Position numbers and translations under genes: made by a program. The notes under the pieces are model-generated. The model saw nothing but the letters and a program-made list of their open reading frames with translations, did no database searches and had not been told where the DNA came from. 64,000 nt of DNA from the NCBI RefSeq assembly GCF_004421185.1, contig NZ_LXQB01000016.1, positions 1-64,000 on the forward strand, written 5' to 3'. Below, in pieces: positions 9,295-46,677 of the stretch (position 1 is its first letter; each line of letters starts with the position of its first letter). Origin of the DNA: Methylacidiphilum sp. Yel (GTDB lineage Bacteria; Verrucomicrobiota; Verrucomicrobiia; Methylacidiphilales; Methylacidiphilaceae).

Positions 9295-11813
9295 TCAAAA
9301 AGGCATTTGCAAAGCGGCATAATCGTAATCTAAACTTGCAGCTGGAGTAAATCCAGCTCCTCCTGCCAGCAAATAATGGTTGTTGGTCAGATTATAAATC
9401 CAAAGACTGGCTTCCCATCTTCTTGCTGTATAAAACAATCTACCATTCAGCGTATACCATGAAGGGGTGCGCAAAGCATAATTAAATCCCAACCACTGAC
9501 CTGTCTCCGCAATGGCCCATAGCGAAATACCAAATCCATTATCCATTTTGTATGTTGCTATCCAATTAGCATAGTTGGAAGGAAATCCCGGGAAAGGATA
9601 CAGGCCAGGAGCCAGAGAAACAATAGGATCAACAGGCAAATGGTACAATGCTGCCACACGGGTCGAATAAGGTTGGTTAACTGTTGGCCCGATAGGATCC
9701 GAAGACCAGTTTTCAAAGCCATCAATTAGGTTGTATCCAAAGTTGATCCACAACTGTTTACAGGGTTGGTAACTTCCTTGGATCTGAAAGCCTCTGACCG
9801 TAGCTGAAACTGTTGGAGTTATCCCGCTAGGTAAAACAAAAGCAGGTACAAAACCCGTCTGATTATAGACAGAAAGAGCTAAGAAAAATCGATTGTTCAA
9901 TAAATTGCATTTGACACCAATTTCCTCTAACTCATTAAGCTGATGGTAATAAGACCCCAGTGAATTCTGGAGCAAAAGCTCCAAATTGAGATTGAGCAGT
10001 AGTCTGCCCAAAAAAGCCTGTTGCATAAAGACTCATCCACGGATAAGGTCTGTACGAAGAGCTGAATGTTAACTGCGGTAATATGGCTGTTAGTTGAGTA
10101 CGGTCATAGGGTTCAAAAGGTTCAAGAAGAATGGCTGGCGTTCCATCTGGAGGACTAGCATCAACATGGTAAAAATCCATCCTTCCACCAAAAAGCAAAG
10201 AAAGCTTGGTGCCAATCTGAATTTGATCTTGAAAAAAAGGAGAAATTTCAAAAAAACGACATTGAGTAGAAAGAAAATTATCAACGTTAAAAAAACCTCC
10301 AGGAAATCCAGGAATAGGAACGTCTGTTAAAAATGGATTGCCATAGGCAACCGCTGTATCATAAGAAACAGGAGAAGGATCATCCTGTCCTCCACTAAAA
10401 GGCTTGGTCATATCCACCTGATTTGCAGGGCCATGCCATGTTCCAAAGTATTCCAAATCGGATAAAAATCTAAAAGCCATCCCAGAATCAATCAGTTGTT
10501 TGATTTTATTGTCTTCCAAGGTAGTTATGACTTCGAGACGATCGGCTACATTATAGCCATAAGGCAGAAAAGCCCAGGTGTCCATGGGCACCGGTTGGCC
10601 AATTTCCGTTCGAAAATATTCTATCATAAGGTTATTAACAATCCGCAGCCGATCATCAATCTCCAACCGGATAATCGGTTGAAAAACTCCATAGGTTTGA
10701 AGTGTGAAATTCAAAGGACTATTGAAGATGTTGTTTCTGCGGCTAATTGGAACTTCAGGCCCAAAATCTATCACGTATCCTCCCGAAGGAGGCGGGGTAA
10801 CATGACCAGGAATAAAAGCTCCTGTAGGACCTATTGATCCAATCCAACTCCCTGTCTGGTAAAGTCCGTCATGGATAAGAGCAGCATTAGGTCGATTAAG
10901 TCCTGCGTAAGGAACAAAATTGTTGAGATCCACTTCTCCATTCCAGTCGATCCAAAGATTTTCCCATGGATGGGCACTAAAAGCCAAATAGAAGGCCTCC
11001 CTTTGCATATATGCCCCATCGTAGTAATTAAAGGGTGCATAACCAGCCTGCCCAAAATAATCTATTCTGAAAGCGGCTTTTTTGGTTTTCCCGACTGGTC
11101 CTCCTAAATCTACATTCCAAAAGCTATCCCCATACATGCCAAAAGTATAGGCAGCATTTCCATGAAACCGGTCGAAATAAGGCTGTTTAGTTAGCTCATT
11201 AACGTAACCCCCAGCAAATTCTTGAGGGCCGAATATAATACTTACTGGACCAGTCACTATATCCATAGAATCATAAGCCATCATGTTCATTAAAGGACCC
11301 CAATTACCCCCCACTTGAAAAGCCCACTAACATTCCATTACGAAACACTGTTCCTGGCAGGCCCCGGATGATAGGTTCACTAACAATATTACCAGTCGCT
11401 TGAGTGGGATTTATCGAAGGGCTAAATGCAGCTAAATCATTTACAGTTAAAGCCATGACCGTTTGCATCTCCTCTTGACTTACAGGACGAATGTCGCGAG
11501 GAATTTCTAGGATGTTCATTTCAGGACCATAAGAAGAAATCTGTCGGCTGGTAGGCAAAATAGTAGGCTCGGAAGAAACAGTCTGAGCACTAACGGTAAC
11601 TTCAGGTAGAGAAATGGTCGGAATGCTTCCTGGAGGTTTATTTGAATCTTTTGAATGCTTTTCTATGGCCCCATCGATTGGATCATCCATTACTTGTGCC
11701 CAAGCTACAGATTCAAAATAAATTTCCAGCTTAAAGAAAAGAGAAAGATTAAAAAAACCAGGCAAAAAAACAAAGGAGGAAGAGGATCCAAAGAGAAAGA
11801 TCCGTAACAACAA
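9295..11813 (-). pseudogene. TonB-dependent outer-membrane receptor with two frameshifts
   Basis: Three overlapping frames add up to a receptor of about 830 residues. The first (11304-11813) has a signal sequence ending near VAWAQ and the start of a plug domain (NDLAAFSPSINPTQATGN, then IIRGLPGTVFRNGM). The middle frame (9935-11314) continues the plug (MDIVTGPVSIIFGPQEFAGG) and the barrel. The third (9295-10026) ends the barrel with ALQMPF, a terminal phenylalanine as is usual for outer-membrane proteins. Frames change at a C6 run (11307-11312; five would restore) and near a C4 run (9955-9958; three would restore). The substrate cannot be read from sequence; the hyp context would allow nickel uptake. 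Two sequencing errors are an alternative explanation. Confidence 0.85.
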
Positions 11814-12106
11814 GCTTCAGCTTCAATCCAAGGTCCTTCATGTAAAAAAGTCGCTAATTCTTTAAGCAAAAGAATTTCATATGCAGAAAACTTAGCAAAA
11901 TCGACTTTGGTTTTGGCAAAACCAAACTGCACAATAACCCAATCATCTACCTGGATTTCGGGTATAAAAGAAAAGCTAATCCTGCTTTTTCTACCTCCAC
12001 ACTGCACCCAGCCAACCAGATCTTTTTGCATAGGATCATAAGTAATGGAGAGAACTTGAGCAAAAAAAGGACAATTTCCAGGATAAAATTCTTTTATAAA
12101 TCTCAT
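11705..12106 (-). CDS. HypC/HupF-like protein lacking the N-terminal Met-Cys
   Basis: The 133-residue protein resembles HypC in its core: NCPFFAQVLSI lines up with the CLAIPGKIVEM of true HypC, and DDWVIVQFGFAKTKVD with GDWVLIHVGFALAKIS. The cysteine is at residue 12 instead of 2, so it could not act as the N-terminal thiol without processing or another start. The last 35 residues are hydrophobic (PPLFFCLVFLIFLFSLSW) and overlap the start of the TonB-receptor frame by 109 bases, so the C-terminal end may not be native. It diverged originally from the DUF6084 gene across a promoter region now duplicated. It is probably an accessory protein of the second hydrogenase system. Confidence 0.65.
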   Translation of the reverse strand: MRFIKEFYPGNCPFFAQVLSITYDPMQKDLVGWVQCGGRKSRISFSFIPEIQVDDWVIVQFGFAKTKVDFAKFSAYEILLLKELATFLHEGPWIEAEACCYGSFSLDPLPPLFFCLVFLIFLFSLSWKFILNL

Positions 12107-12185
12107 TTTCCGGTAGAATAATACTTTAAAAGAATATCAATATAGTAAACCAAAAGAAAAAAAATTAAACTAACCAACAGTGCAC
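12041..12185 (+). repeat. Direct repeat copy 1 (old hypC-like/DUF6084 intergenic region)
   Basis: This stretch, from the first codons of the HypC-like gene through the AT-rich intergenic part to CAGTGCAC, recurs at 13847-13972 with small indels. It contains the putative divergent promoter and, at its right end, the GTG start plus one further codon of the DUF6084 gene. The two copies bracket about 1.7 kb of inserted DNA. Confidence 0.9.
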
Positions 12186-13547: not shown

Positions 13548-13865
13548 GGATGGAATATGTTGAAGCAAAGGATGAATTGCACTACGTAAAACAAAAAGAA
13601 CAGTTCAAAGGTGCTGAAAAAGCCTGTAAAGATGCTTGAAGAATTAGCAAAAGATGAAAAAAGTCATGCTTCTACCTTACGTAATCTCCTTGAAGAAAGT
13701 CCCTTACCTAAAAATAGAATAGAAAGCATTTTGATTAGAGAAAAATGGCATGGCAAAGGAAGAAACTGGATAACTGACTCCATTTATTGTATAAATAATG
13801 GGTTAGGAGCTGTTTTTGGCAAAGATGCTTGGGTAACTGGCGCTACTGTAAGGGACAGAACTTGA
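13548..13865 (+). pseudogene. Rubrerythrin/VIT1-like gene fragment
   Basis: Two frames together read AKDELHYVKQKEQFKGAEKACKD and then LEELAKDEKSHASTLRNLL, a ferritin-like helix with the E..H iron-binding pattern. KWHGKGRNWITDSIY and INNGLGAVFG follow, which match the start of the VIT1/CCC1 iron or manganese transporter domain. The gene stops abruptly at the junction with direct repeat copy 2, so the transporter part is missing. One frameshift lies near 13610. It is a broken remnant carried by the insert. Confidence 0.65.
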
Positions 13866-13972
13866 GCAAAAAAGGACAATTTCCAGGATAAAATTCTTGT
13901 ATAAATCTCAACTATTTTGAAAGAATATCAATATAGTAAACCAAAAAAAAATTAAACTAACCAACAGTGCAC
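13847..13972 (+). repeat. Direct repeat copy 2
   Basis: This is the second copy of the 12041-12185 segment. It begins inside what was the HypC-like coding sequence (minus strand) and runs to CAGTGCAC, where the DUF6084 gene starts. The copies differ by a few substitutions and missing bases, including loss of a short stretch around TTTTCCGGTAG, so the duplication is not brand new. The VIT1 fragment is cut at its left edge. Confidence 0.9.
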
Positions 13973-14602
13973 CTTAATTTTGAAATCCTAAAAGCCCTTC
14001 CCAAAACGCAATGTTTGTCTCCTACTCTAAATTTTTTAGTCCAAGTCCATTATCTTGGAAAAGAATGTCTTGATTCGGCTCTTCTGCAAGTACGGGTTAT
14101 GATAGAGCCGAAAATCAAAGATTACAGCTTATCGGAACTAAAAAGGATAGAGCGTCGTTTTGGTCCACCCGAATCTCTCAATAGTATTTTGTGGTGTGAA
14201 AAGATGCTGCTTTTAAATCGAATCAATTCGATCCAGACCGTAGATCTACCCATTGAGATTAGAGATGATCATGAATCGGCTATGTGGTATTATTTTTCCT
14301 CGTTAGAAGGAGGAGAAATCTTTTTAAAATTTTTTTTCAGTGGAATTTGTTATCTTTTAGCTGAAGACAAAATAACAGTCCGATCTATTCCTTGGAGTTC
14401 TGAATGCAGCTATCTGATGCCTTACGAAATCTGGAAAGAAACACTTTTTCGATACTATCCTGATTCCCTTTGGATCCGATTGGATCATAGCCTCTATGAA
14501 AGACCTCAGGATTATCAATTATCCCATAGACTTCCTTCGCTGCAAACGGCCTTAGAAAGGCTATTAGATAAAGAGCAAACTGAAACAAGGAGAATAGGTT
14601 GA
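13967..14602 (+). CDS. DUF6084 hydrogenase-associated protein
   Basis: The 211-residue protein matches the DUF6084 pattern throughout: LNFEILKALPKTQCLSPTL at the start, VRVMIEPKIKDYS, then FGPPESLNSILW, SLEGGEIFLKFFFSGICY, and VRSIPWSSECSYLMPYEIW near residue 142. DUF6084 genes sit in clusters for high-affinity (group 1h-type) NiFe hydrogenases, mainly known from actinobacteria; the function is unknown. The GTG start at 13967 lies in the duplicated repeat. The TGA stop overlaps the TTG start of the next frame, indicating translational coupling. It suggests that a hydrogenase locus once continued to the right. Confidence 0.8.
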   Translation: MHLNFEILKALPKTQCLSPTLNFLVQVHYLGKECLDSALLQVRVMIEPKIKDYSLSELKRIERRFGPPESLNSILWCEKMLLLNRINSIQTVDLPIEIRDDHESAMWYYFSSLEGGEIFLKFFFSGICYLLAEDKITVRSIPWSSECSYLMPYEIWKETLFRYYPDSLWIRLDHSLYERPQDYQLSHRLPSLQTALERLLDKEQTETRRIG

Positions 14603-14765
14603 CAATAGAACAAGCCCGTCTTTTATCTCAATCTCTTCTCTACGAAGGCTATATTCTATGGCCTTATCGAGCCAACGCTTTAAAGAATAACCCGGCAACC
14701 CGATTTCAATTTGGGGTTCTGATGCCACAACTCTCTGATCCTCAATTCCAACAGGAACCATATTC
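14599..14765 (+). pseudogene. 5' stub of a hydrogenase-associated gene, cut by the defence island
   Basis: The first ~45 codons from the TTG at 14599 read EQARLLSQSLLYEGYILWPY, RANALKNNPATRFQFGVLMP. This resembles the start of a conserved protein of unknown function (typically with YEGYLLYPYR and a W/F-FGVL block) encoded next to DUF6084 in group 1h-type hydrogenase clusters. The AT-rich sequence then gives way to very GC-rich DNA between about 14765 and 14815, and the frame runs on into the helicase. The rest of the gene is missing. The ribosome-binding sequence AAGGAGAATAGG precedes the TTG. Confidence 0.65.
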
Positions 14766-14838
14766 TGCCTCTTACGGGTGTGGATCCTTCCGCTCCTGCC
14801 ATCGTCTGTTTGGAAACGTGGTCCGGATGGGGAAACCC

Positions 14839-17800
14839 ATGGACGTTTTTCGTCTGAGAGACCGCCTGGTCAAGGAGTACAGCGACTTCGTCAGGAGCTT
14901 CCTGACCGTTCGCGACGAGCGAATCTGCCAGCTCGTCGAGGATGAGCTCGAGCAGGGCCTCCTCTGGCCGGAGGCTCTGGTCCAACTGAACCCGGGATTC
15001 GAGATGGCGGAGACCATCGACGAGCTCGTTGACCAAGGGATGCTCCACGAAACCTGCCGACAAATCTTCCGGATCAAGAGCGAGGCCGACCCATATGGGC
15101 GTCCCCTGCGGCTGTACCGGCATCAGGCGGACGCGATCCGGGTGGCACGGACGGGCGCGAGCTACGTGCTGACGAGCGGCACGGGATCAGGGAAGAGTCT
15201 TGCTTACCTCGTTCCCATTGTGGACGCCGTGCTGCGCGAGGGGCCCGGGAAGGGCATCCGGGCCATCGTCGTCTACCCCATGAACGCCCTCGCCAACAGC
15301 CAGGCTAGCGAGCTCCGCAAGTTTCTGGAGCTGGGGTTCCCCAACGGGCGAGGCCCCGTCCGTTTCCGCCGCTACACCGGTCAAGAAACGGACGCCGAAA
15401 GGCAAGAGATCGTCAAGAATCCCCCGGACATCCTGCTCACTAACTACGTCATGCTCGAGCTCATCCTCACCAGGCCCATCGAGCGGGGCCTGGTTGAAGC
15501 AGCTCGGGGTCTCCGCTTCCTGGTACTGGACGAGCTTCACACCTACCGCGGCCGCCAGGGATCCGACGTGGCGATGTTGGTTCGTCGGGTCCGGGAGGCC
15601 TGCCAGGCACGGGAACTCCAGTGCGTGGGCACCTCTGCCACCCTTGCGGGGGTCGAGGACCTGAGCAAGCAACGCGCCCGCATCGCTGAGGTCGCCACTT
15701 TGCTGTTCGGTACGGAGGTGCGTCGCGGGGCGGTCATCGTGGAGACGCTCCGGCGCGTGACCGATGCGTGGGACGCATCCGACCCTGCCTTCCGCCAGGA
15801 GCTCCGGCGTCGGGTGGAGGACGGGGCGGTCCCCGAGAGCGTCGACGCCTTCCGACGGGATCCCCTGGCCCGCTGGATCGAGAGCGCCCTCGGCATCGAA
15901 GAAGTGGGCCACGAAAGGCGGCGGGCACGGCCGCGGCCCATCCGGGGCGAGGACGGTCTCGCCCGGAAGCTGGCCACACCGACCGCGCTTTCGGAGGACC
16001 GGTGCGCGGAAGCTATCCAGCGGACGCTTTTGGCGGGCTGCACGCTGCGTGACCCTGAGACCGACGCGCCTCTGTTCGCGTTCCGCGTGCACCAGTTCTT
16101 CACCCGGGGGGATACGGTCTACGCGTCGCTGGAGCCGCCTGAGGCTCGCTACCTCACCTTGCGTGAGCAGCAGTACGTCCCCGGAGATCGGACGCGATGG
16201 CTCATTCCCCTAGTCTTTTGTCGAGAGTGCGGACAGGAATACTACGCGGTACGAGAGATCCGCGACGATGGAGGGCGCACGGTTTTTGAACCCCGAGAGC
16301 CATGGGAGCGAGAGGAGGGAAGTGCATACCTCTACCTTGCCCCGGATGATCCCTGGCCTGAGGAGCCTGAGGCCGTCTTGGAGCGCATCCCCGGCGATTG
16401 GTTCGACGCGTCAGGACAGCTTCGGAATTCCCGCCGGGACTGGCTCCCTCGCCCGGTGCGCATCGGCACGGATGGTCGGGAGACACCTGACGGGTCCACG
16501 TTCCTGCTTATTCGCGCTCCCCTCCCCTTTTGTATGCGTTGCGGGGTCTCCTACGAGGGTCGAGAGCGGCGCGACTACGCGCGATTGGCCACCGTGGGCG
16601 AGGGGGGCCGCGCCACCTCGACAACGATCCTCGTCGCCGAAGCGATCCGGAGGCTCGCCGAGGACGAGGAGCTACCTGCGACCGCGCGCAATATTTTGAG
16701 CTTCACCGACAACCGGCAGGACGCCTCGCTCCAGGCCGGTCACTTCAACGATTTCGTGGAGGTGGGACTCCTCCGTGCTGCGCTGTACCGCGCAACCCAG
16801 CAGGCCGCCGCCCCAGGAATCCGTCACGACGAGCTCACGCAGCGTGTCTTCGAAGCACTGGCGCTCCCCATCGAGGGCTACGCGCGCGACCCCTCGGTCC
16901 GGTTCGCGTTCCGCGAGGAGACGGACAGGGCCCTCCGAGACGTCCTCGGCTACCGCCTCTATCGGGATCTGGAGCGCGGGTGGCGCCTGACAGCCCCCAA
17001 TCTCGAGCAGTGCGACCTCCTCAGGATCGAGTACCTCTCCCTCGACGAGGTGTGCGCAGCGGAGGACATCTGGCGCGGCCTGCATCCTGTCCTGACCGGA
17101 GCCAGGCCCGAGGAGCGGCAAGAGGCGGCTCGAACGCTCCTGGATTTGCTACGCCGCGAGCTGGCCATCAAGGTGGACTACCTCGACCCTGTCTACCAGG
17201 ACGGACTCCGCCAACGCTCCAGCCAGTACCTCGCCCCGCCATGGGCCTTCGACGAGGACGAACGGCTTGTGAGCGCGGCTGTCGCCTACCCGCGCCCGCG
17301 CCGCAAGGAGGACTACGGGGGACATCTCTTTGTTTCCCCCAGGAGCCTGTTTGGTCAGTACCTCCGCCGCCCGAGCACCTTCCCTGGAAACCGGACTCAG
17401 CTTCGGCTTGAGGATACCGAGCGGATCATCCGCGATCTCTTCGCGGCCTTGAGAGAGGGCGGCCTGGTGGCGGCGGTCGACCAGCCGCTCCGCGACGTCC
17501 CCGGGTACCAGTTGCTGGCAGCCTGCATGATCTGGAAAGCAGGTGACGGGAGCAGGCCCTACCAGGACCCCCTGCGGCGGGTCACGGTCCGCGCCGCGAC
17601 GGGCCGCCAGGCGAACCCGTATTTCGTTGACCTCTACACCGGGGTGGCGGGGACCATGGTCGGCGTCGAGGCCCGGGAGCACACCGCCCAAGTTCAGGCG
17701 GAGGTCCGCGAGCAGCGCGAGAAGGACTTCCGGGAGGGCCGGTTGCCTATTCTGTTCTGCTCCCCCACGATGGAGCTCGGCATCGACATCGCCGATCTCA

Positions 17801-19992
17801 ACGTGGTGAACCTGCGGAACGTCCCTCCGACACCCGCCAACTACGCCCAGCGGAGCGGGCGCGCGGGCCGGAGCGGCCAGCCGGCCCTCGTGTTCACGTA
17901 CTGTGCCGCCAAAAGCTCCCACGATCAGTACTTCTTCCGCCGTCCCGAGGAGATGGTGTCGGGCCAGGTCCAGCCGCCCCAGCTCGACCTCACCAACGAA
18001 GATCTTCTCCGAGCCCACGTCCACGCCGTCTGGCTTGCCGAGACCGGGGTGGACCTGCGTTCGTCCCTCGCCGATGTCCTCGACACCGAGGGCGAAAATC
18101 CCACGCTGCAGATCCGCCCCTCCCTGCGTGACGCGCTTGCCAGACCCGAGGCGCGTGAGCGCGCCCACGAGCGGTGCCGCCGCATCCTCCGTAGCATCCG
18201 CGGACTCGAGGAAGCCGACTGGTACCACCCGGACTGGCTTGACCGGGTCCTCGACGGGGCCCTCGGGGCCTTTGACCAGTCCTGTAACCGATGGCGTACC
18301 CTGTATCGAGCGGCCCTCAAGACCCGCGAGGAGCAGAATCGGGTCATCGGAGATGCCTCCCGGAGTCCCAAGGACCGCGACCGCGCCAAGCGCCTGCGGG
18401 CCGAGGCCGAGTCGCAGCTTGAGCTCCTCCGGGCCGACGTCGAGGGCGCCCGGCCCTACCAGTCGGACTTCTACAGCTACCGGTACTTCGCGAGCGAGGG
18501 GTTCCTGCCTGGCTACAACTTCCCGCGCCTGCCGCTCTCGGCCTTCATCCCGGGTCGCCGGGGCACCAGGGGTCGCGACGAGTTTCTCTCGCGCCCCCGC
18601 TTCCTGGCGATCTCCGAGTTCGGGCCTCGCGGGATCGTCTACCACGAGGGATCGCGGTACGTGATCCACCGCGTGCTGCTGCCGCCCGAGCGGACGGGCG
18701 AAGGGCGGCTCGTGACCCACACCGCAAAGCAGTGCGGGGCATGCGGCTACCTCCACCCTATCCTCGAGTCCCCCGGGCCCGACCTCTGCGAGCGCTGCGG
18801 CGCGGTGCTCCCCGCTCCCGTCGAGCGCCTCTTCCGCCTCCAGAACGTCTCCACCAGGCGGCGAGACCGCATCAGCTCCGACGAGGAAGAGCGGCTGCGC
18901 ATCGGCTACGAGATCCGCACGGGGGTGCGCTTTGCCGAGGAGAACGGCAGGCCACGCGCCAGGTCTGCCCGCGTCGTTCTCGACGGCGAGCCCCTGGCTA
19001 CTCTGACCTACAGCGGTGCGGCCACCCTGTGGCGGATCAATCTGGGCTGGGCCCGGCGGAGCAACCCTGACCGCCTGGGCTTCCTCCTCGACACGGAGCG
19101 GGGGATCTGGCAGCAGCACGAGGCCAAGGAGCCGACCGAGGACGAGGATGCCGCCACAGCGACAGAGCGGGTCGTCCCCTTCGTGGAGGACCGCCGCAAC
19201 GCGCTGCTCTTCGAACCTGCCAGCGAGCTCTCGGAGGAAACCATGGCCTCTCTGGGTGCTGCCCTCATGAAGGCCATCCAGGTCGAATTCCAACTGGAGG
19301 AGCAGGAGCTGGCCGTCGAGCCCCTGCCCACCCCTGAGCGCCGCCGGCTGCTGCTCTTCTACGAGGCCGCCGAGGGCGGGGCCGGGGTACTCCGGAGGCT
19401 CGTCACAGAACCCGAGGCCCTGCCCCGGGTCGCTCGGGCCGCGCTCGCGCTCTGCCACTTCGACCCCGAGACCGGCGAGGACCGCCGCCGCGCCCCGCGG
19501 GCCCGCGAGGACTGTGAGGCCGCCTGCTACGACTGCCTGATGAGCTACACCAACCAGCCGGACCACCGGCTTTTGGACCGTCGCCTCGTACGGGATGTCC
19601 TCATGAAGATCGCCCGGGCTCGCTGTGAGCCGTCGCCCGGCCCTGGCCCCCGCGCCGACCACCTGGAGGCGCTGCTTCGTTCCTGTCAGACGGAGCTCGA
19701 GCGGCGGTGGCTCCGGTTCCTCGACGCTAGGGGCCTTTTGCTCCCTTCGCGGGCCCAGGTGCTCATCCAAGACGCCCGCGCGCGCCCGGATTTCGTCTAC
19801 GACGCCGACCGGGTAGCGGTCTTTGTCGACGGACCCGTCCACGATTACCCGGACGTGGCTATCCGCGACGCGCGGGCCGCCGAGCGCCTGGAGGACCTCG
19901 GCTACACCGTGATCCGCTTTGGTCCCAACGAGGCCGCCTGGGAGGAGGTGATCGACCAATGGCCCAGCCTTTTCGGGAAGCCTTCCCGGTAG
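14839..19992 (+). CDS. DEAD/DEAH helicase with DUF1998 and C-terminal nuclease-like domain (DrmA/DrmB- or DruE-like)
   Basis: About 1717 residues from the ATG at 14839 (MDVFRLRDRLVKEYSDFVRS); the open frame extends back to 14599 through the hydrogenase-gene stub. Helicase motifs: GTGSGKSLAYLVP (near 15180), VYPMNALANSQ, LDELHTYRGRQGSD, GTSATLAG, then the second RecA domain with CSPTMELGIDIADLNVVNLR and QRSGRAGRSGQ. A zinc-binding CGACGY...CERCG and a DUF1998 region (YEAAEGGAGVLRRLV, then CEAACYDCLMSY) follow. The last ~100 residues (RPDFVYDADRVAVFVDGPVH, YTVIRFG) look like a Vsr/DUF559-type endonuclease fold. DUF1998 helicases are core to DISARM (DrmA/DrmB) and Druantia (DruE). The gene overlaps the SNF2 gene by 34 bases. 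Third codon positions are almost all G or C, unlike the flanking genes. Confidence 0.88.
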   Translation: MDVFRLRDRLVKEYSDFVRSFLTVRDERICQLVEDELEQGLLWPEALVQLNPGFEMAETIDELVDQGMLHETCRQIFRIKSEADPYGRPLRLYRHQADAIRVARTGASYVLTSGTGSGKSLAYLVPIVDAVLREGPGKGIRAIVVYPMNALANSQASELRKFLELGFPNGRGPVRFRRYTGQETDAERQEIVKNPPDILLTNYVMLELILTRPIERGLVEAARGLRFLVLDELHTYRGRQGSDVAMLVRRVREACQARELQCVGTSATLAGVEDLSKQRARIAEVATLLFGTEVRRGAVIVETLRRVTDAWDASDPAFRQELRRRVEDGAVPESVDAFRRDPLARWIESALGIEEVGHERRRARPRPIRGEDGLARKLATPTALSEDRCAEAIQRTLLAGCTLRDPETDAPLFAFRVHQFFTRGDTVYASLEPPEARYLTLREQQYVPGDRTRWLIPLVFCRECGQEYYAVREIRDDGGRTVFEPREPWEREEGSAYLYLAPDDPWPEEPEAVLERIPGDWFDASGQLRNSRRDWLPRPVRIGTDGRETPDGSTFLLIRAPLPFCMRCGVSYEGRERRDYARLATVGEGGRATSTTILVAEAIRRLAEDEELPATARNILSFTDNRQDASLQAGHFNDFVEVGLLRAALYRATQQAAAPGIRHDELTQRVFEALALPIEGYARDPSVRFAFREETDRALRDVLGYRLYRDLERGWRLTAPNLEQCDLLRIEYLSLDEVCAAEDIWRGLHPVLTGARPEERQEAARTLLDLLRRELAIKVDYLDPVYQDGLRQRSSQYLAPPWAFDEDERLVSAAVAYPRPRRKEDYGGHLFVSPRSLFGQYLRRPSTFPGNRTQLRLEDTERIIRDLFAALREGGLVAAVDQPLRDVPGYQLLAACMIWKAGDGSRPYQDPLRRVTVRAATGRQANPYFVDLYTGVAGTMVGVEAREHTAQVQAEVREQREKDFREGRLPILFCSPTMELGIDIADLNVVNLRNVPPTPANYAQRSGRAGRSGQPALVFTYCAAKSSHDQYFFRRPEEMVSGQVQPPQLDLTNEDLLRAHVHAVWLAETGVDLRSSLADVLDTEGENPTLQIRPSLRDALARPEARERAHERCRRILRSIRGLEEADWYHPDWLDRVLDGALGAFDQSCNRWRTLYRAALKTREEQNRVIGDASRSPKDRDRAKRLRAEAESQLELLRADVEGARPYQSDFYSYRYFASEGFLPGYNFPRLPLSAFIPGRRGTRGRDEFLSRPRFLAISEFGPRGIVYHEGSRYVIHRVLLPPERTGEGRLVTHTAKQCGACGYLHPILESPGPDLCERCGAVLPAPVERLFRLQNVSTRRRDRISSDEEERLRIGYEIRTGVRFAEENGRPRARSARVVLDGEPLATLTYSGAATLWRINLGWARRSNPDRLGFLLDTERGIWQQHEAKEPTEDEDAATATERVVPFVEDRRNALLFEPASELSEETMASLGAALMKAIQVEFQLEEQELAVEPLPTPERRRLLLFYEAAEGGAGVLRRLVTEPEALPRVARAALALCHFDPETGEDRRRAPRAREDCEAACYDCLMSYTNQPDHRLLDRRLVRDVLMKIARARCEPSPGPGPRADHLEALLRSCQTELERRWLRFLDARGLLLPSRAQVLIQDARARPDFVYDADRVAVFVDGPVHDYPDVAIRDARAAERLEDLGYTVIRFGPNEAAWEEVIDQWPSLFGKPSR

Positions 19993-22802
19993 GCTCACTG
20001 GTGCGGGCGCGGGGCCGGGATTGGGTCGTGCTCCCCCGGTCCGACCCCGAGGTCCTCGTCGTCCGGCCCCTAGGCGGCACCGAGGACGAGGTCACCGGGA
20101 TCTACCTTCTGTTGGAGCATGTCGAGCCGGCCACCTTCCTCCCGCCTGACCCCTCGGACCTCGGAGACTTCCTCTCCGCGCGCCTGCTGCACGACGCGCT
20201 CCGCTTGGGCTTCCGCGAGACCACCACGCCACTGCGCTGTCTCGCCCGTATTGCCGTAGAACCTCGGCCTTACCAGCTTGTCCCGCTTCTCATGGCCCTT
20301 AAACTCGACCCCGTCCGTCTGCTTATCGCCGACGACGTCGGAGTGGGAAAGACCGTCGAGGCGGCCCTCGTGGCGCGAGAGCTTCTGGACCGCGGGGAGG
20401 TGCAGCGGCTTGCCGTCCTCTGCCCCCCGCACCTGGCCGAGCAGTGGCGGCGGGAGCTTAAGGAGAAGTTCCACATCGCGGCCGAGGCGGTCCTGGCCGG
20501 CACTACGACGGGCCTGGAGCGAAGTCTTGGGCTCGGCGAGAGCCTGTTCGAGCACTATCCCTTCGTCGTGGTCTCCACGGACTTCATCAAGTCCGAGCGG
20601 CGCTGGCAGGAGTTCGTTCGGACCTGCCCCGATCTGGTCATCGTTGACGAGGCCCACGAGTGCGCCGACCAGTCGGGAGGACGCGGCGCCCACCTGCGGT
20701 ACCGCCTCGTCGCGAAGATCGCCGAGGACCCCCGCCGCCACCTGATCCTCGTGACGGCCACGCCCCACTCGGGGAAGCAAGACGCTTTCCGGAACCTCCT
20801 CAGCTTCCTCGACCGCTCGCTGGCCACCATCCCGGAGGACCTCTCCCCCGAGGCCCGGCGGGCAGAGCGGCAGCGCCTGGCCCGCCACTTCGTCCAGCGC
20901 AGGCGCGCCGACGTCGAGCACTACCTCACCACCGAAACTCCGTTTCCGAATCGGGAGGCTAGGGAGGAGACCTATACCCTCTCGGCCGAGTACAAGGACT
21001 TCTTCCAGCGGGTGCTGCGCTGGTGCCGCGAGAGGGTCCGCGACCCCTCAGGCGGTGCCCACCGTCAGCGGGTGCGCTGGTGGGCGGCCCTCGGCTTGCT
21101 CCGGGCGGTGGGGTCGAGCCCGGCGGCGGCCGCTGGCACCCTGCGCGAGCGGGCCCAGGGGTCACACACCTCTACCCCCGAGGAGGCCGACGAACTTGGC
21201 CGCCGCACGGTCATGGATCTCACCGATGAAACCGCCGAGGCGACGGACGTCACCCCGGGAGCCGACGCAGAGGACGAGGCCCCGACGTCACCGGAGAGGC
21301 GCCGCTTGCTGGAGCTGGCCCGCGCCGCGGACGCCCTGCGAAGGCAGGCCGACCGAAAGCTCGCTAAGGGCATTGAGCTCGTCCGCGGCCTCCGCGAGGA
21401 CGGCTTCTACCCCGTCGTCTTCTGCAAGTTCATCGAGACGGCCGAGTACGTAGCAGCGGCCCTGCGCGAGGCGCTCCCCGGGGTGGAGGTGGAGGCCGTG
21501 ACGGGCCGGCTCCCTCACACCGACCGCGAGCAGCGTGTGACCGAGCTCGCTACGCATCCCCGGCGGGTGCTCGTCGCCACCGACTGCCTGTCGGAGGGGA
21601 TTAACCTCCAGGACCACTTCGACGCTGTCCTCCACTACGACCTCGCCTGGAACCCCACTCGTCACGAGCAGCGGGAAGGCCGCGTGGACCGATTCGGCCA
21701 GCGGCGCCGGCTAGTCCGCACGGTGATGGTCTATGGGGCGGACAACCCCGTCGACGGGATCGTTCTTGACGTGCTCCTGCGCAAGCACCGGGAGATCCGC
21801 AGGAGCCTCGGCGTGAGCGTGCCCGTCCCGGAGAGCGAAAGCGTCCTGGAGGCTATTCTCGAAGGTCTACTCCTCCGAGGCAGGCCGGACGATGTCATCG
21901 AGGCCAAGCTGCAGCTTTTCGAGACGGAGGTCATCGCGCCCAAGCGGACCGAGTTCCACCGACGCTGGGATCGGGCCGCCGAGCGGGAGCGGCGCTCCCG
22001 CTCGATCTTCGCCCAGGAGGGGATCAAGGCCGACGAGGTGGCCGCCGAGCTCCAGGCTCACCGCCGCACCCTGGGCGGACCCGAGGACGTGGCCCGCTTC
22101 ACCCAGGACGCCCTCCACGCCCTCGGGGCTGCCGTCGCCATCCGCGACGGGGCGCTTGAAGCCGAGCTGCGCGAGACTCCCCAGGCGCTGCGCGACGTGC
22201 TCGGGCTCGACCGCGACACCATCCGAGGCCGCTTCGACCTCCGCGTGGGGGATGGCGAGTTCCACCTCTCCCGCACCCACCCGGTGGTTGAGGGCCTCAC
22301 ATCGTTCGTTCTCGACACCGCCCTCGACCCGCATGCACCCGAGGAAGTCCGGGTCGCCCGGCGGGCGGGCGTGGTGCGCACCCGGGGAGTGGAGCGGCGC
22401 ACCACCCTGCTGCTCGTGCGGCTGCGCTTCGACCTCATGACCCGCAGGCCCGACGGCACAGAGCATCGCCAGCTCGCTGAGGAGGCCTCGCTCGTGGCCT
22501 TCGAAGGTCCCTCCGACGATCCCAGCTGGCTCTCCGACGAGGACGCCGAGCGGGTGCTGGCCATCACGCCCGACGCAAACATTACCCCCGAGCAGGCCCG
22601 CTACCACTTGAGCCGCGTGCTCGAGGGGATGTCCGCACTCCAGCCTGCCCTGGACAAACGCGCCCGCCGCCGGGCCGAGGCTATCCGCGAGGTCCACCAG
22701 CGCCTCGCCGCCGGCGCGCGCCTGCGCGGACTACGCATCACGGTCGAGCCGAAACTCCCGCCAGACGTCCTCGGCGTCTACGTCTACCTGCCGGTAAGCT
22801 AG
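19959..22802 (+). CDS. SNF2-family helicase (DrmD-like)
   Basis: The 947-residue protein has an SNF2/SWI2 ATPase core: LLIADDVGVGKTVEAALVA (Walker A, near residue 122), LVIVDEAHECAD (DEAH box, near 226), LVTATPHSGK, and the second RecA lobe with VLVATDCLSEGINLQDHF and NPTRHEQREGRVDRFGQRR near 570. An acidic insert (about residues 405-440) precedes the second lobe, and a long helical C-terminal part follows. DrmD of class 1 DISARM is an SNF2 helicase paired with an adenine methyltransferase, as here. It overlaps the upstream helicase by 34 bases, and the methyltransferase ATG follows its stop by two bases, so the three are translated as one operon. Confidence 0.88.
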   Translation: MAQPFREAFPVGSLVRARGRDWVVLPRSDPEVLVVRPLGGTEDEVTGIYLLLEHVEPATFLPPDPSDLGDFLSARLLHDALRLGFRETTTPLRCLARIAVEPRPYQLVPLLMALKLDPVRLLIADDVGVGKTVEAALVARELLDRGEVQRLAVLCPPHLAEQWRRELKEKFHIAAEAVLAGTTTGLERSLGLGESLFEHYPFVVVSTDFIKSERRWQEFVRTCPDLVIVDEAHECADQSGGRGAHLRYRLVAKIAEDPRRHLILVTATPHSGKQDAFRNLLSFLDRSLATIPEDLSPEARRAERQRLARHFVQRRRADVEHYLTTETPFPNREAREETYTLSAEYKDFFQRVLRWCRERVRDPSGGAHRQRVRWWAALGLLRAVGSSPAAAAGTLRERAQGSHTSTPEEADELGRRTVMDLTDETAEATDVTPGADAEDEAPTSPERRRLLELARAADALRRQADRKLAKGIELVRGLREDGFYPVVFCKFIETAEYVAAALREALPGVEVEAVTGRLPHTDREQRVTELATHPRRVLVATDCLSEGINLQDHFDAVLHYDLAWNPTRHEQREGRVDRFGQRRRLVRTVMVYGADNPVDGIVLDVLLRKHREIRRSLGVSVPVPESESVLEAILEGLLLRGRPDDVIEAKLQLFETEVIAPKRTEFHRRWDRAAERERRSRSIFAQEGIKADEVAAELQAHRRTLGGPEDVARFTQDALHALGAAVAIRDGALEAELRETPQALRDVLGLDRDTIRGRFDLRVGDGEFHLSRTHPVVEGLTSFVLDTALDPHAPEEVRVARRAGVVRTRGVERRTTLLLVRLRFDLMTRRPDGTEHRQLAEEASLVAFEGPSDDPSWLSDEDAERVLAITPDANITPEQARYHLSRVLEGMSALQPALDKRARRRAEAIREVHQRLAAGARLRGLRITVEPKLPPDVLGVYVYLPVS

Positions 22803-22804
22803 CC

Positions 22805-26905
<4,101 letters not shown>

Positions 26906-32045: not shown

Positions 32046-32530
32046 TTACCTACACTTTACCAGCCGAAGCACCAGCACCTCTCCCCTCCGGATGTACACA
32101 AGGTAAACGCCCACGGAAGATTTGGTAGTGGATCTAAACGTTCCCCAATTATAGGTTTGGGTGGAGCCAAACCCTGAGTAGCCGGCAACTTCCCTTTGTT
32201 CGGTTATGATCCATACAGCGTTTCCCCCAAGTTTCTGCACCTCCTCCATCCATTGATGAATAAGTATTGAATGGGCCAAGGGACGGGGGCCTCGCTTGGC
32301 CACGTGAAGAACCCAAGGATCCGATAGGGACGGTCCGGTTCGTAGTAGTAGACAGGGATTCCTTCCACCTGCTCGACAAAAGCTCCCCTTCGATTCTCCG
32401 GATGCACAGCTGCCGAACCCGAGTAGGGTGTAAACCGTGTTGCAACCCCGACACAACCGCCAAAAGAAAGCACTGCCAGACAAAGAAGGAGCCCTGGGAG
32501 AAGCGCCAACGCCCAGCCGAAACAGCTCCT
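32046..32530 (-). pseudogene. Degenerate small lipoprotein, copy 1 of a family
   Basis: A hydrophobic segment ending in a lipobox-like LSFGGC (near 32460) is followed by GAFVEQVEGIPVYYYEPDRP, then YRILG. The frame changes at the CCC near 32312 and continues HVAKRGPRPLAHSILIHQWM, EEVQKLGGNAVWIITEQREV and GEVLVLRLVK. Copy 2 at 45339-45780 has the uninterrupted junction YRVLGVLHVGKLGPRPLAHS, which shows that one base is missing here. The function is unknown; it looks like an envelope lipoprotein. The open frame continues upstream to 33073 without recognisable content. Confidence 0.65.
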
Positions 32531-34989: not shown

Positions 34990-35216
34990 AACCGGTCAAA
35001 GAAAGCCGAGGCAGACCTCGGAGGCACCAAACACCGTGGGTCACTGCAGGAAAGGGAGCAGGCGCGTCACAATCCTTTCCGCCCTCTAAGTCGGCTCCTT
35101 AGAGCCTTGGAAAAAGAAGAAATAGCTCCGAAACCGGCCACATCGTGACACATGAAAAAAAAATAGGCATGGATAATCAACACCTTACGAAACTTCTACC
35201 AAACATGGGGCAGGAG
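34990..35216 (-). repeat. Dispersed repeat, full copy B
   Basis: Read on the minus strand it runs from CCCCATGTTTGGTAGAAGTT through TCATGTGTCACGATG, CCAAGGCTCTAAGGAGCC, AGAGGGCGGAAAGG and GCAGTGACCCACGGTGTTTG to GAGGTCTGCCTCGGC. The blocks match copy A (40317-40545) along about 225 bases. The stem GGCTC-TAAG-GAGCC is intact. It fills the gap between two converging genes, so it could act as a terminator-bearing or mobile non-coding element. Confidence 0.85.
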
Positions 35217-38445: not shown

Positions 38446-39352
38446 TTGCGCGAATTTCCAGAGCTTTTGATGTTACCTCTCCCCCCAAAAAAGCTTGTGG
38501 TTTCTTTTCTTGCCTTTGAGGCATTAGCCCGCGCACGGGTTTGCGCACCTTCTGGCAGAGGCAGAAATCCCCGGGGAGAGCTTTCCGGCGTATTCGCGGG
38601 GTATGCCAGACGGGGATGGCTCATCCAACGGAGGTCTCAAGCGGCCCTTAGCCCAAGGGAGCAGGAACGCTTTCTTTGCGCCTACCGCACGCTTTCTTGG
38701 CAAGGCGTGCTTGGCCGCTTTGTGGACATCCACGCCGAAATCACGCACCACATGCACACGATGCCAGCGTCGGGGGACCCAAGCGGTCAAGCTCGGCAGA
38801 GAGCGCTTTCTTCCATGGCACCGGATCTACCTCTTTCTTTTTGAAAAGGCTTTGCAAGACCTAGACCCAAGCCTTGCTATCCCCTACTGGGATTGGAAAA
38901 GTACGAGCCAACAGGATTTACCGCACTGGGTAAGCGGGTTCACCGATCCGGTTAAGACTCCGCTCCAAGCTGAAATCCCAATGTGGGTTGCGCCGGGGGA
39001 TCCTAAGGAGCTTAACGCGATCGCCCAGACAATCCCTACAGTCTTGCAGCATAGCGCCTACACGGAGCTTACCCGCTCTCCAGAGATCGCCCGCAACCTT
39101 GTGCACCTATGGGTTGACGGAATCATGGCCCAGATCCCCACAGCGCCTGTGCACCCGATTTTTTGGATGCATCAGGCCAATCTTGACCGGCTGTGGTGGA
39201 CATGGCAGGAGAGCAGGGTTGGCCAGGGGAAACATCCAAACTTACCCGGAGGCCGTGCAGTGCTGGACCCATGGGGCTACCGCGAGGAAGACACCCGTGA
39301 TATCCTCCAACTGGGCTACCAGTATGTTGGAGCTCCTTTTCCCTCGCAATAG
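38446..39352 (+). pseudogene. Tyrosinase-family copper enzyme, one frameshift
   Basis: The first frame contains LSPREQERFLCAYRTL and FVDIHAEITHHMHTM, and the second GRERFLPWHRIYLFLFEKAL, AIPYWDWKS and VHPIFWMHQANLDRLWWTW. These are the CuA and CuB histidine motifs of tyrosinases, type-3 copper enzymes that oxidise phenols. The frames switch at a G5 run (38772-38776); four G would join HTMPASG to TQAVKLGRE. The true start is unclear, since the first ~60 codons before LSPREQ do not look like the family. A bacterial tyrosinase of about 240-300 residues would result. Confidence 0.8.
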
Positions 39353-40316: not shown

Positions 40317-40545
40317 CCCATGTTTGGTGAAAATTTCGTAAGTTATTGATTATCAATGGTCCTTTTTTCAATGTGTCACGATCTAGGGGGTTTTGGAGGT
40401 TCTTTTTTTCGGTTTCCAAGGCTCCAAGGAACTGATTTTGGAGGGCGGAAAAGATCTGACGGCCTGCTCGCTTTCCAGCAGTGACCCCGCGGTGTTTGGC
40501 GCCTCCGATGTCTGCCTCGAACGTCTTTGGACGGTGAGCAAGTGG
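40317..40545 (+). repeat. Dispersed repeat, full copy A
   Basis: It starts CCCATGTTTGGTGAAAATTT directly after the FRG stop and includes CGTAAGTTATTGATTATC, TCAATGTGTCACGATCT, TCCAAGGCTCCAAGGAACTG, GGAGGGCGGAAAAG, GCAGTGACCCCGCGGTGTTT and TCTGCCTCGAAC. It matches copy B along its whole length. The internal stem has lost pairing here (GGCTC versus GAACT). The rest of the gap up to 40730 shows nothing recognisable. Confidence 0.85.
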
Positions 40546-44791: not shown

Positions 44792-45338
44792 TGGTGGGCG
44801 GGTCAGGAGACTGCTCGGCGGATTCTGGGATGCGAGAGTCCCGCCACAGGGCCGATTTATACGAATGTACAACCCAAGCGGGAGGTCTAGCCACCTCTTA
44901 ATGTGCGGGGTCAGGAGCCGTTCACTTTCCAGTGTACCCTGGAAGGGTCTTGTCAAGTCTGTTGAAGTCCCGCGATGTCCGTGAAGCCAGTGTCGGAGTG
45001 GTCAGTTTTTGTTGGTCGGCGCAGGCCGGTGGTTGTGTCGCGTCGTGCGAGGGTGAGGTTAGCCCTATCAGAGCGATGCAGGTGGGGTGGATTGAATTCC
45101 TTCTCAGGTTGGATGCGGCCAGTTGCCCTATTAGCCGGGGTGCACTGCCGACGGCGCAAGCTAAGCCCCTACGCCCAGCACTTTTGAGCATCTGACACAA
45201 AGCCAAAGGAGCGGTCATTAGTTCCATCTGTTTTTTTCACCATTGCAAACGGGGACAATTTTTGCTCAGACTGGCTGACTTCGCTGGTTAAGTGGGCTTC
45301 TGGGGGTGAGCAGAGGCAGTTTTTTTCGATCCCTACAT
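44792..45338. other. Stretch without a recognised gene
   Basis: About 550 bases between the beta-helix gene and the second lipoprotein remnant. Short open frames on both strands show no known domain. No repeats or strong hairpins were recognised. Confidence 0.2.
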
Positions 45339-45780
45339 TCACTTTTGCAGTCGGAGCACCAACACCTCCCCGCTTGTAGCATAGTTGGGATAAGCATGGA
45401 TGGACGATTAGGTTGTGGAACTATACCCCCCAACTGTACGTGCTGGCCAAGCCATGCCAAGTATAGCCCACAACTTTTGTTCGTTCAGAGACGAGCCACA
45501 CAGCGTTACCCCCGACTTTCCACACTTCATGCATCCATTGACCGGTAAGTCTTGAATGGGCCAAAGGACGCGGGCCTAGCTTGCCTACATGAAGAACTCC
45601 CAGGACTCGATAAGGGCGGTCCGGTTCCGAGTAATACACTGGTATCCCCCCCACTAACTCAACAAAGGCCCTTGCCGGCTGCCTGGGTGTACAGCCATTG
45701 AACTGGAATAGGGGGTAAAGTAGTAGAAACGCATCCAGCCAAAGAAAGGCATGCCATAAGAAGCCGGAGACCCCGAAGGA
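45339..45780 (-). pseudogene. Degenerate small lipoprotein, copy 2 of a family
   Basis: The main frame reads ARAFVELVGGIPVYYSEPDR, PYRVLGVLHVGKLGPRPLAH, SRLTGQWMHEVWKVGGNAVW, LVSERTKVVGYTW, the same protein as copy 1 (32046-32530). At a C6 run (45426-45431) the frame is lost. With one base less it continues SSTT, meets a TAA, and ends GEVLVLRLQK, matching GEVLVLRLVK of copy 1. Both copies are therefore inactive but at different sites. The N-terminal signal part is poorly preserved. Confidence 0.65.
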
Positions 45781-45799
45781 AGCGGCTCGCTGTTGATCG

Positions 45800-45865
45800 G
45801 GAGCATCTTAGTTCTTGATTATCAAGGCGGTTTTTCAATGTCTCGCTACGTTGGGGTTCTGGGGG
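45800..45865 (+). repeat. Possible fragment of the dispersed repeat (copy D)
   Basis: TTCTTGATTATCAAGG, TTTTTCAATGTCTCGCTACG and TTGGGGTTCTGG line up with TTATTGATTATCAATGG, TTTTTTCAATGTGTCACGAT and GGGGGTTTTGG of copy A. The outer blocks were not found around it. It lies just right of lipoprotein copy 2. Confidence 0.5.
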
Positions 45866-46462
45866 CTATCTTGCCCTATCTTGACATATCACTATCTCAA
45901 GAGGGGTCTTGTGGCAAGAAAATTTCCCTCAAAAAAAACAACAAGGCCGTGTCGCCATTTTGGTTTTCCGGGATATGAACGTGCTGCCGGTTTTCAATGG
46001 TCCAGTGGCACCAGCCGGGGTGGAAAAACTTTTTGGAAAAAGACAAGACGGGATGCGCTTATTAAGAGGCGGGAGAGAGATAGGGAGCATCCCACCCGCG
46101 CGCGTCTGCCTAAGGCGGATCGTCCTACAAACCAAGTTTGTCACAGCAAACGCCGGCCACCCCTAGATCGGACGCAAACCAAAGACAAGACCCGCACCGA
46201 AATTCGAGCACCCCACTCTCCTGGCACGGGTGAGGAGAGCTCTGCCTGGACATCCTCCAATCGGCAGCTTTGGGGCACCTTGCCCCGCTTCGGCTAGCCA
46301 GCCCTCCCCATTCCCAGTGTCGTTGGTTTGTCGTCAACTTTGTTGTGCATTTATGCACACGTGTGTTAACGTCTACGCAATGCCTTCCAGAGGAAAAATC
46401 CCGTGATTCAATATAGAATGAGGATACTTGGCTAAGATTTGGTCTCCTACCAGAGGAAAATC
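45866..46462. other. Stretch without a recognised gene next to the tRNA
   Basis: About 600 bases leading up to the 3' end of tRNA-Ser. Overlapping open frames are basic and low in complexity and show no known domain. Near 46345 the sequence TTGTGCATTTATGCACACG is a short palindrome. No second copy of the tRNA 3' end was found by eye. Confidence 0.25.
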
Positions 46463-46550
46463 GGAGCCGGAGGGATTCGAACCCTCGAAGGGATTTTGGT
46501 CCCTTAACGGTTTAGCAAACCGCTGCCTTCAGCCACTCGGCCACAGCTCC
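46463..46550 (-). tRNA. tRNA-Ser (anticodon GCT)
   Basis: The minus strand reads GGAGCTGTGGCCGAGTGGCT at the 5' end and GGTTCGAATCCCTCCGGCTCC at the 3' end, with complementary 7-base acceptor arms (GGAGCTG-like/CGGCTCC). The anticodon loop TTTGCTAAA carries GCT for serine codons AGC/AGU. A long variable arm (GGGACCAAAATCCC) confirms class II serine tRNA. No CCA is encoded. Its 3' end faces the accessory region. Confidence 0.95.
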
Positions 46551-46677
46551 AATTTTATCCATAAACTATATTTTAAGCTTTTAGACTACAAACAAATATC
46601 TTAAACTTTAAAAAAATTTCGAAAAAGAATGAAGCATTAATTAGGTAAAAAATTTAACTTTAAAAGAAACAAGGAAA

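Follow-up and report, generated by a model that had tools for sequence, protein, structure and literature searches.

Group 1h hydrogenases oxidise atmospheric or trace H2. In Cupriavidus necator pHG1 the genes of such a cluster run large subunit, NifU-like protein, DUF5947, DUF6084, homologue of a 414-aa protein and protease, and in Methylocystis parvus they run large subunit, DUF5947, DUF6084, 414-aa homologue and protease; in both, the full-length 414-aa homologue sits between DUF6084 and the protease, with a 4-nt overlap. Within the genus Methylacidiphilum, to which the hot-spring methanotroph Yel belongs, a review records the group 1h hydrogenase from SolV, Kam1 and Phi, does not name Yel, and notes that among the isolates Yel alone is without group 1d (PMC8498564). 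M. infernorum V4 has lost its group 1h hydrogenase through genome rearrangement (Kruse et al. 2019, PMC6688271). Thus the same hydrogenase is gone from a sister species, although the loss in Yel, unlike that in V4, maps to a defined replacement of hydrogenase genes by an island and has left a scar that can be read at the sequence level. The replacement explains at the sequence level why one Methylacidiphilum species has no group 1h hydrogenase, a difference that the review noted without explaining. What is left of the cluster in Yel follows the gene order of C. necator pHG1, including a 4-nt overlap at the same place, but Yel retains only DUF6084 and 58 codons of the gene that follows it.

The DNA that took the place of the missing genes can be compared with two further kinds of system. 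The first is the Islander-type tRNA-targeted genomic island (PMC4383910). Like these elements, the island in Yel abuts the 3′ end of a tRNA gene, here tRNA-Ser; a displaced piece of the tRNA is present in both of its sister elements, of which the tRNA-Arg one also encodes a tyrosine integrase. Unlike Islander-type elements, the island at tRNA-Ser (hereafter the Ser island) has neither integrase nor displaced fragment, and on its far side host genes have been deleted. The second comprises the defence systems Druantia, DISARM and Dpd, of which single components (DruE; DrmD and DrmMI; DpdE) are each resembled by a protein of the island; unlike these systems, the island holds a three-gene set without the partner genes of any of them. 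As described below, a hydrogenase-associated gene runs in frame into the first gene of this set. The fusion is genuine. It is a scar, left where a tRNA-linked island replaced the group 1h structural genes; a mobile element has thus exchanged a cluster of energy genes for a module of defence genes.

Replacement of the hydrogenase genes in Yel

The window, by which we mean the whole 64,000-nucleotide stretch of Yel DNA that was analysed, contains the following features.

13848–13966, + strand: region upstream of DUF6084, adjoining it; counterpart by blastn of a 66-bp divergent intergenic region in Kam1 (putative promoter)
13967–14602, + strand: intact DUF6084 gene of the group 1h accessory cluster (Pfam PF19562, E=2.1e-56)
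14599–14771, + strand: retained 5′ end of the 414-aa accessory gene, 58 residues, TTG start (97% identical to Kam1 residues 1–58)
14772–14838, + strand: island leader from the alignment joint, the 67 bp that precede the helicase's own ATG, GC 0.58
14839–19992, + strand: DruE-like DEAD/DEAH helicase with MrfA Zn-binding and DUF559 domains (Pfam; PADLOC DruE3, 338 bits), native start ATG 14839
19959–22802, + strand: SNF2-type helicase, DrmD/DpdE-like, second gene of the module (PADLOC DpdE, 813 bits)
22805–26905, + strand: Eco57I-type adenine methyltransferase, DrmMI-like, third gene of the module (Pfam PF07669, E=1e-17; PADLOC DrmMI, 256 bits)
14772–46460, no strand: GC-rich island of 31.7 kb in place of hhySL, the protease and the 414-aa gene beyond codon 58 (GC profile; alignment to SolV and Kam1)
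46300–46460, − strand: tRNA-proximal end of the island with two TTTTCCTCTGG repeats, common to the elements at tRNA-Arg (Yel) and tRNA-Thr (SolV) (pattern search)
46461–46551, − strand: tRNA-Ser (GCT), 3′ end towards the island, putative integration site (ARAGORN, Rfam)

Base-level alignment places the left joint between 14771 and 14772, where identity to both SolV and Kam1 breaks, in the one draft assembly (Yel, 88 contigs) from which this joint is known. Identity resumes at 46460–46462, which is the 3′ end of tRNA-Ser. These two points lie 5.8 kb apart in SolV and 5.1 kb apart in Kam1, compared with 31.7 kb in Yel. In both relatives the order is tRNA-Ser, hhyS, hhyL, protease, 414-aa gene and DUF6084, hhyL and hhyS being encoded on the other strand and the maturation protease that follows the 414-aa gene belonging to the HycI family. 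Hence hhyS, hhyL, the protease and 356 codons (86%) of the 414-aa gene have been replaced in Yel. A whole-genome search found no copy of the 356-codon remainder elsewhere in Yel, and a whole-genome search of the same assembly, which is 99.98% complete, found no hhyL, leaving the genome without the hhySL pair of structural genes. The only hydrogenase large subunit recovered from the Yel genome is group 3b-like; a group 1d large subunit was not found, which agrees with the review, yet hupB (group 1d) has been reported in YNP IV, whose ANI to Yel is 0.998 (PMC8779874), a discrepancy that may be a strain difference or an assembly gap.

The DUF6084 protein is 90% identical to that of Kam1 and 89% identical to that of SolV, and its TGA stop (14600–14602) is overlapped by the TTG at 14599 to give TTGA, preceded by a ribosome-binding site, AAGGAGA, that is identical in SolV, Kam1 and Yel. 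The original prediction had read this TTGA as the coupling of DUF6084 to the start of the fusion and had called for an uninterrupted version of the gene in related genomes. The overlap is there in SolV and Kam1 as well, where DUF6084 is followed by an intact 414-aa ORF that begins with TTG. The 414-aa protein itself has no family match in Pfam or NCBIfam, but because its homologues lie in the group 1h clusters of other bacteria (C. necator pHG1 and Methylocystis parvus), the earlier assignment of the truncated gene to a group 1h accessory cluster is right, and Yel has the arrangement by which such a cluster is known, DUF6084 followed by a 414-aa family gene with overlapping stop and start. Codon comparisons of DUF6084 in Yel against SolV and Kam1 give 18–20 synonymous and 22–24 amino-acid-changing differences, and SolV against Kam1 gives 24 and 27. 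These counts suggest no clear loss of constraint on DUF6084 and the 58 codons, and they are too small for dating the event.

Origin of the island at tRNA-Ser

The GC content of the island is 0.69 in the defence module and about 0.54 elsewhere. At its right side the island abuts the 3′ end of tRNA-Ser exactly, and an Rfam scan returned matches to tRNA only. The 165 bp that adjoin this tRNA 3′ end recur beside tRNA-Arg(CCT) in Yel and beside tRNA-Thr(TGT) in SolV; that is, the terminal sequence is common to sister elements at other tRNA genes. The tRNA-Arg element (Yel contig C88, 1125–10994) is complete at about 9.8 kb and has at its far end a tyrosine integrase (PF00589) and an exact 46-bp copy of the 3′ half of tRNA-Arg. 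Likewise, the tRNA-Thr element (SolV, L053:1791–8776) has a 44-bp tRNA copy at 91% identity. These two are ordinary tRNA-targeted integrative elements, and together with the Ser island they define a family of such elements in the genus Methylacidiphilum.

The Ser island differs from its sisters at the opposite end. A repeat of tRNA-Ser was looked for at the left joint and not found; there is no tRNA-Ser copy in the window, and a genome-wide search for a displaced fragment gave nothing except a 2-mismatch match on another contig. The window also contains no homologue of the tRNA-Arg element's integrase, and there is no recombinase among the island ORFs scanned. Because the displaced fragment is present in the sisters and missing here, we call the Ser island a truncated remnant, whose element type is recognised only from its conserved right end and by comparison with its sisters. 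That shared end and those sisters are likewise the grounds on which we infer integration at tRNA-Ser, the far att copy being missing. Given an island with neither integrase nor far att copy, integration followed by a deletion across the far end best explains the scar.

We therefore favour, with a probability of roughly 0.85, a history in which an element integrated at tRNA-Ser and a deletion then fused the side carrying DUF6084 and 58 codons to the DruE-like helicase. Specifically, the common tRNA-side end and the complete sister element suggest that an integrative element entered the 3′ end of the tRNA-Ser gene in the Yel lineage. A later deletion would have run from just upstream of the first defence gene, across the far end of the element and through hhyS, hhyL, the protease and the 356 codons. 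The loss of the hydrogenase interval from tRNA-Ser to codon 58 is observed, and the deletion is the step that would account for it. The group 1h hydrogenase would have been lost with this deletion, and DUF6084 with 58 codons would have come to adjoin the helicase, in a phase that happened to be right, so that a single frame beginning at the hydrogenase TTG continues through the helicase. The order, integration and then deletion, is how the sequence of the two ends is most readily understood; the same picture would result if the arrangement had already existed in another strain and had been acquired from it in one recombination step.

Several further observations concern the content of the island. 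A 32-bp sequence, AAGATGCTCCCGATCAACAGCGAGCCGCTTCC, occurs identically at 45778–45809 and near 1540–1572 in the tRNA-Arg island (Yel contig C88), and within 3 mismatches it was found in no other of 13 family genomes searched. A frameshifted tyrosinase-like gene (Pfam PF00264) lies at 38446–39352. There are also internal repeats, one pair inverted at 79% identity (34991–35209 and 40317–40535) and the other direct at 69% (32047–32434 and 45334–45719), and their divergence suggests that the island is an old mosaic.

The fusion frame and the start of the helicase

From the TTG at 14599 a single frame runs without a stop to 19992, encoding 1797 aa. As the original prediction stated, it passes uninterrupted into the helicase, and the residues quoted there (YEGYILWPYRANALKNN, FGVLMP and MDVFRLRDRLVKEYSDF) are all present in the translation of the window. 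Positions 14772–14838 are read as 22 extra residues within the fusion. All three reading frames are open across 14770–14841, so the in-frame phase can be taken as an accident with a chance of about 1 in 3, for which selection is unnecessary. Judged by alignment, then, the 58-residue match to the start of the intact Kam1 gene exceeds chance, and the phase of the fusion is about what chance would give.

Homologous helicases were compared in 18 genomes and one plasmid: four other Verrucomicrobia, 14 more spread over several phyla (among them Gemmataceae, Nannocystis, Actinomycetota and Anaerolineae) and D. radiodurans MP1. All of these homologues start at the equivalent of ATG 14839 and have no extension, and in every one of the 14 the first codon in the alignment is ATG, GTG or TTG. 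By the test that the original prediction set, a long N-terminus on such helicases outside a hydrogenase context would have spoken against the fusion as an insertion product; none of the homologues has one, which favours a genuine fusion. Since they begin where they do, the native start is ATG 14839, which the Yel helicase keeps, and the fusion adds 58 hydrogenase-derived and 22 leader residues. In an AlphaFold2 model, residues 1–81 have pLDDT below 50 and the helicase core is mostly above 85; the alignment behind the model held 13 sequences, and the low values come partly from the absence of aligned homologues at residues 1–81. The 80-residue extension is thus predicted to be probably unstructured.

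It is informative to consider which transcript and which start codon the helicase may use. Pairing with the anti-Shine–Dalgarno sequence is calculated at −8.3 kcal/mol before TTG 14599 and −6.2 kcal/mol before ATG 14839, and translation from the TTG, with its good ribosome-binding site, is possible. Only 67 bp of island DNA are left upstream of ATG 14839, the region 5′ of DUF6084 is retained in Yel, and in SolV the hhy cluster and its accessory genes are constitutively expressed (PMC5364354); a promoter scan of 13800–15200 gave matches at chance level only. Taken with the pairing energies, the short leader, the retained upstream region and the expression in SolV make it plausible that transcription of the hydrogenase operon extends into the defence operon and that the helicase is translated from the TTG as well as from the ATG. 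In the history that we favour, the defence operon would most likely be transcribed at least partly from the DUF6084 promoter, and the helicase might be made both at normal length from its own ATG and, from the TTG, with the 80 additional residues. A clear prediction also arises about the start codon used by the defence helicase. A stronger version, in which the island promoter has been lost, the constitutive accessory promoter drives the helicase operon and the chimeric helicase with its extension is the main product, so that anti-phage defence would now be controlled by an operon of energy metabolism, seems to us unlikely.

Unlikely, too, is the proposal that the fusion was selected, the 58 residues giving the helicase a useful new property or placing it under hydrogenase control. 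The single open frame with its good ribosome-binding site, the constitutive expression of the cluster in SolV and the shortness of the remaining island leader could all be read in this way, although the right phase without a stop is expected about one time in three, the extension is predicted to be unstructured and the fusion is seen in one genome only. The fusion is a neat accident of evolution and probably not a new mechanism.

An assembly artefact, with contaminant high-GC DNA misjoined to the Methylacidiphilum chromosome, is very improbable. The fragmented draft and the abrupt change in GC at the joint (0.38 to the left, 0.68 in the helicase) would fit such a misjoin, but both flanks match SolV and Kam1 loci that are separated by only 5.1–5.8 kb and agree with Yel in order and orientation, and the tRNA-side end recurs as an element end elsewhere in Yel and in the closed SolV genome. 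Flanks that are neighbours in the relatives, in the right orientation, one of them the end of a recurrent element, make a chimeric contig unlikely; furthermore, the omission of Yel from the review's list of group 1h strains (PMC8498564) is consistent with a real loss. Least probable of all is a simple insertion of the island into codon 58, as the original prediction envisaged when it spoke of an insertion that cut the accessory cluster: the gene is indeed cut at codon 58 and foreign DNA begins there, but beyond the island lies tRNA-Ser and not the rest of the gene, and since the remainder and hhyL are missing from Yel, whereas in the relatives the 356 codons, hhySL and the protease sit before tRNA-Ser, this reading is contradicted, the whole interval from tRNA-Ser to codon 58 having been replaced.

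The defence module and its surroundings

Although each of the three proteins resembles a component of a known system, none of those systems is recovered in the island. For Druantia there is the DruE-like helicase at 338 bits, and no DruA–D, F, G or H was among the matches listed for the island proteins scanned. For DISARM there are only the DrmMI-like and DrmD-like proteins, with no DrmB or DrmC among the matches listed, and the SNF2 protein scores 303 bits against NCBIfam DrmD, below the cut-off of 610. For Dpd, the same protein reaches 813 bits with one PADLOC DpdE model and 190 bits against NCBIfam DpdE, below the curated cut-off of 500, and no dpdA was among the matches listed. The three genes occur in the same order in another Methylacidiphilum, two other Verrucomicrobia, Limnoglobus, a Gemmataceae MAG, Nonomuraea, Acidimicrobiales and Thermoleophilia MAGs and Deinococcus radiodurans plasmid MP1; in Nannocystis the order is the same, with intervening genes. 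The module is therefore best described as a widespread helicase–helicase–methylase set, and its anti-phage role is suggested by resemblance only.

Outside the island, the region before DUF6084 has a duplicate near 12042–12185, and between 12186 and 13919 lies a separate 1.7-kb insertion that encodes a Phd-like antitoxin and perhaps a PIN-type toxin and is flanked by 144-bp copies at 83% identity. Further upstream, at 9295–12106, a TonB-dependent receptor gene is broken into several frames; its counterpart in Kam1 is one 945-aa ORF.
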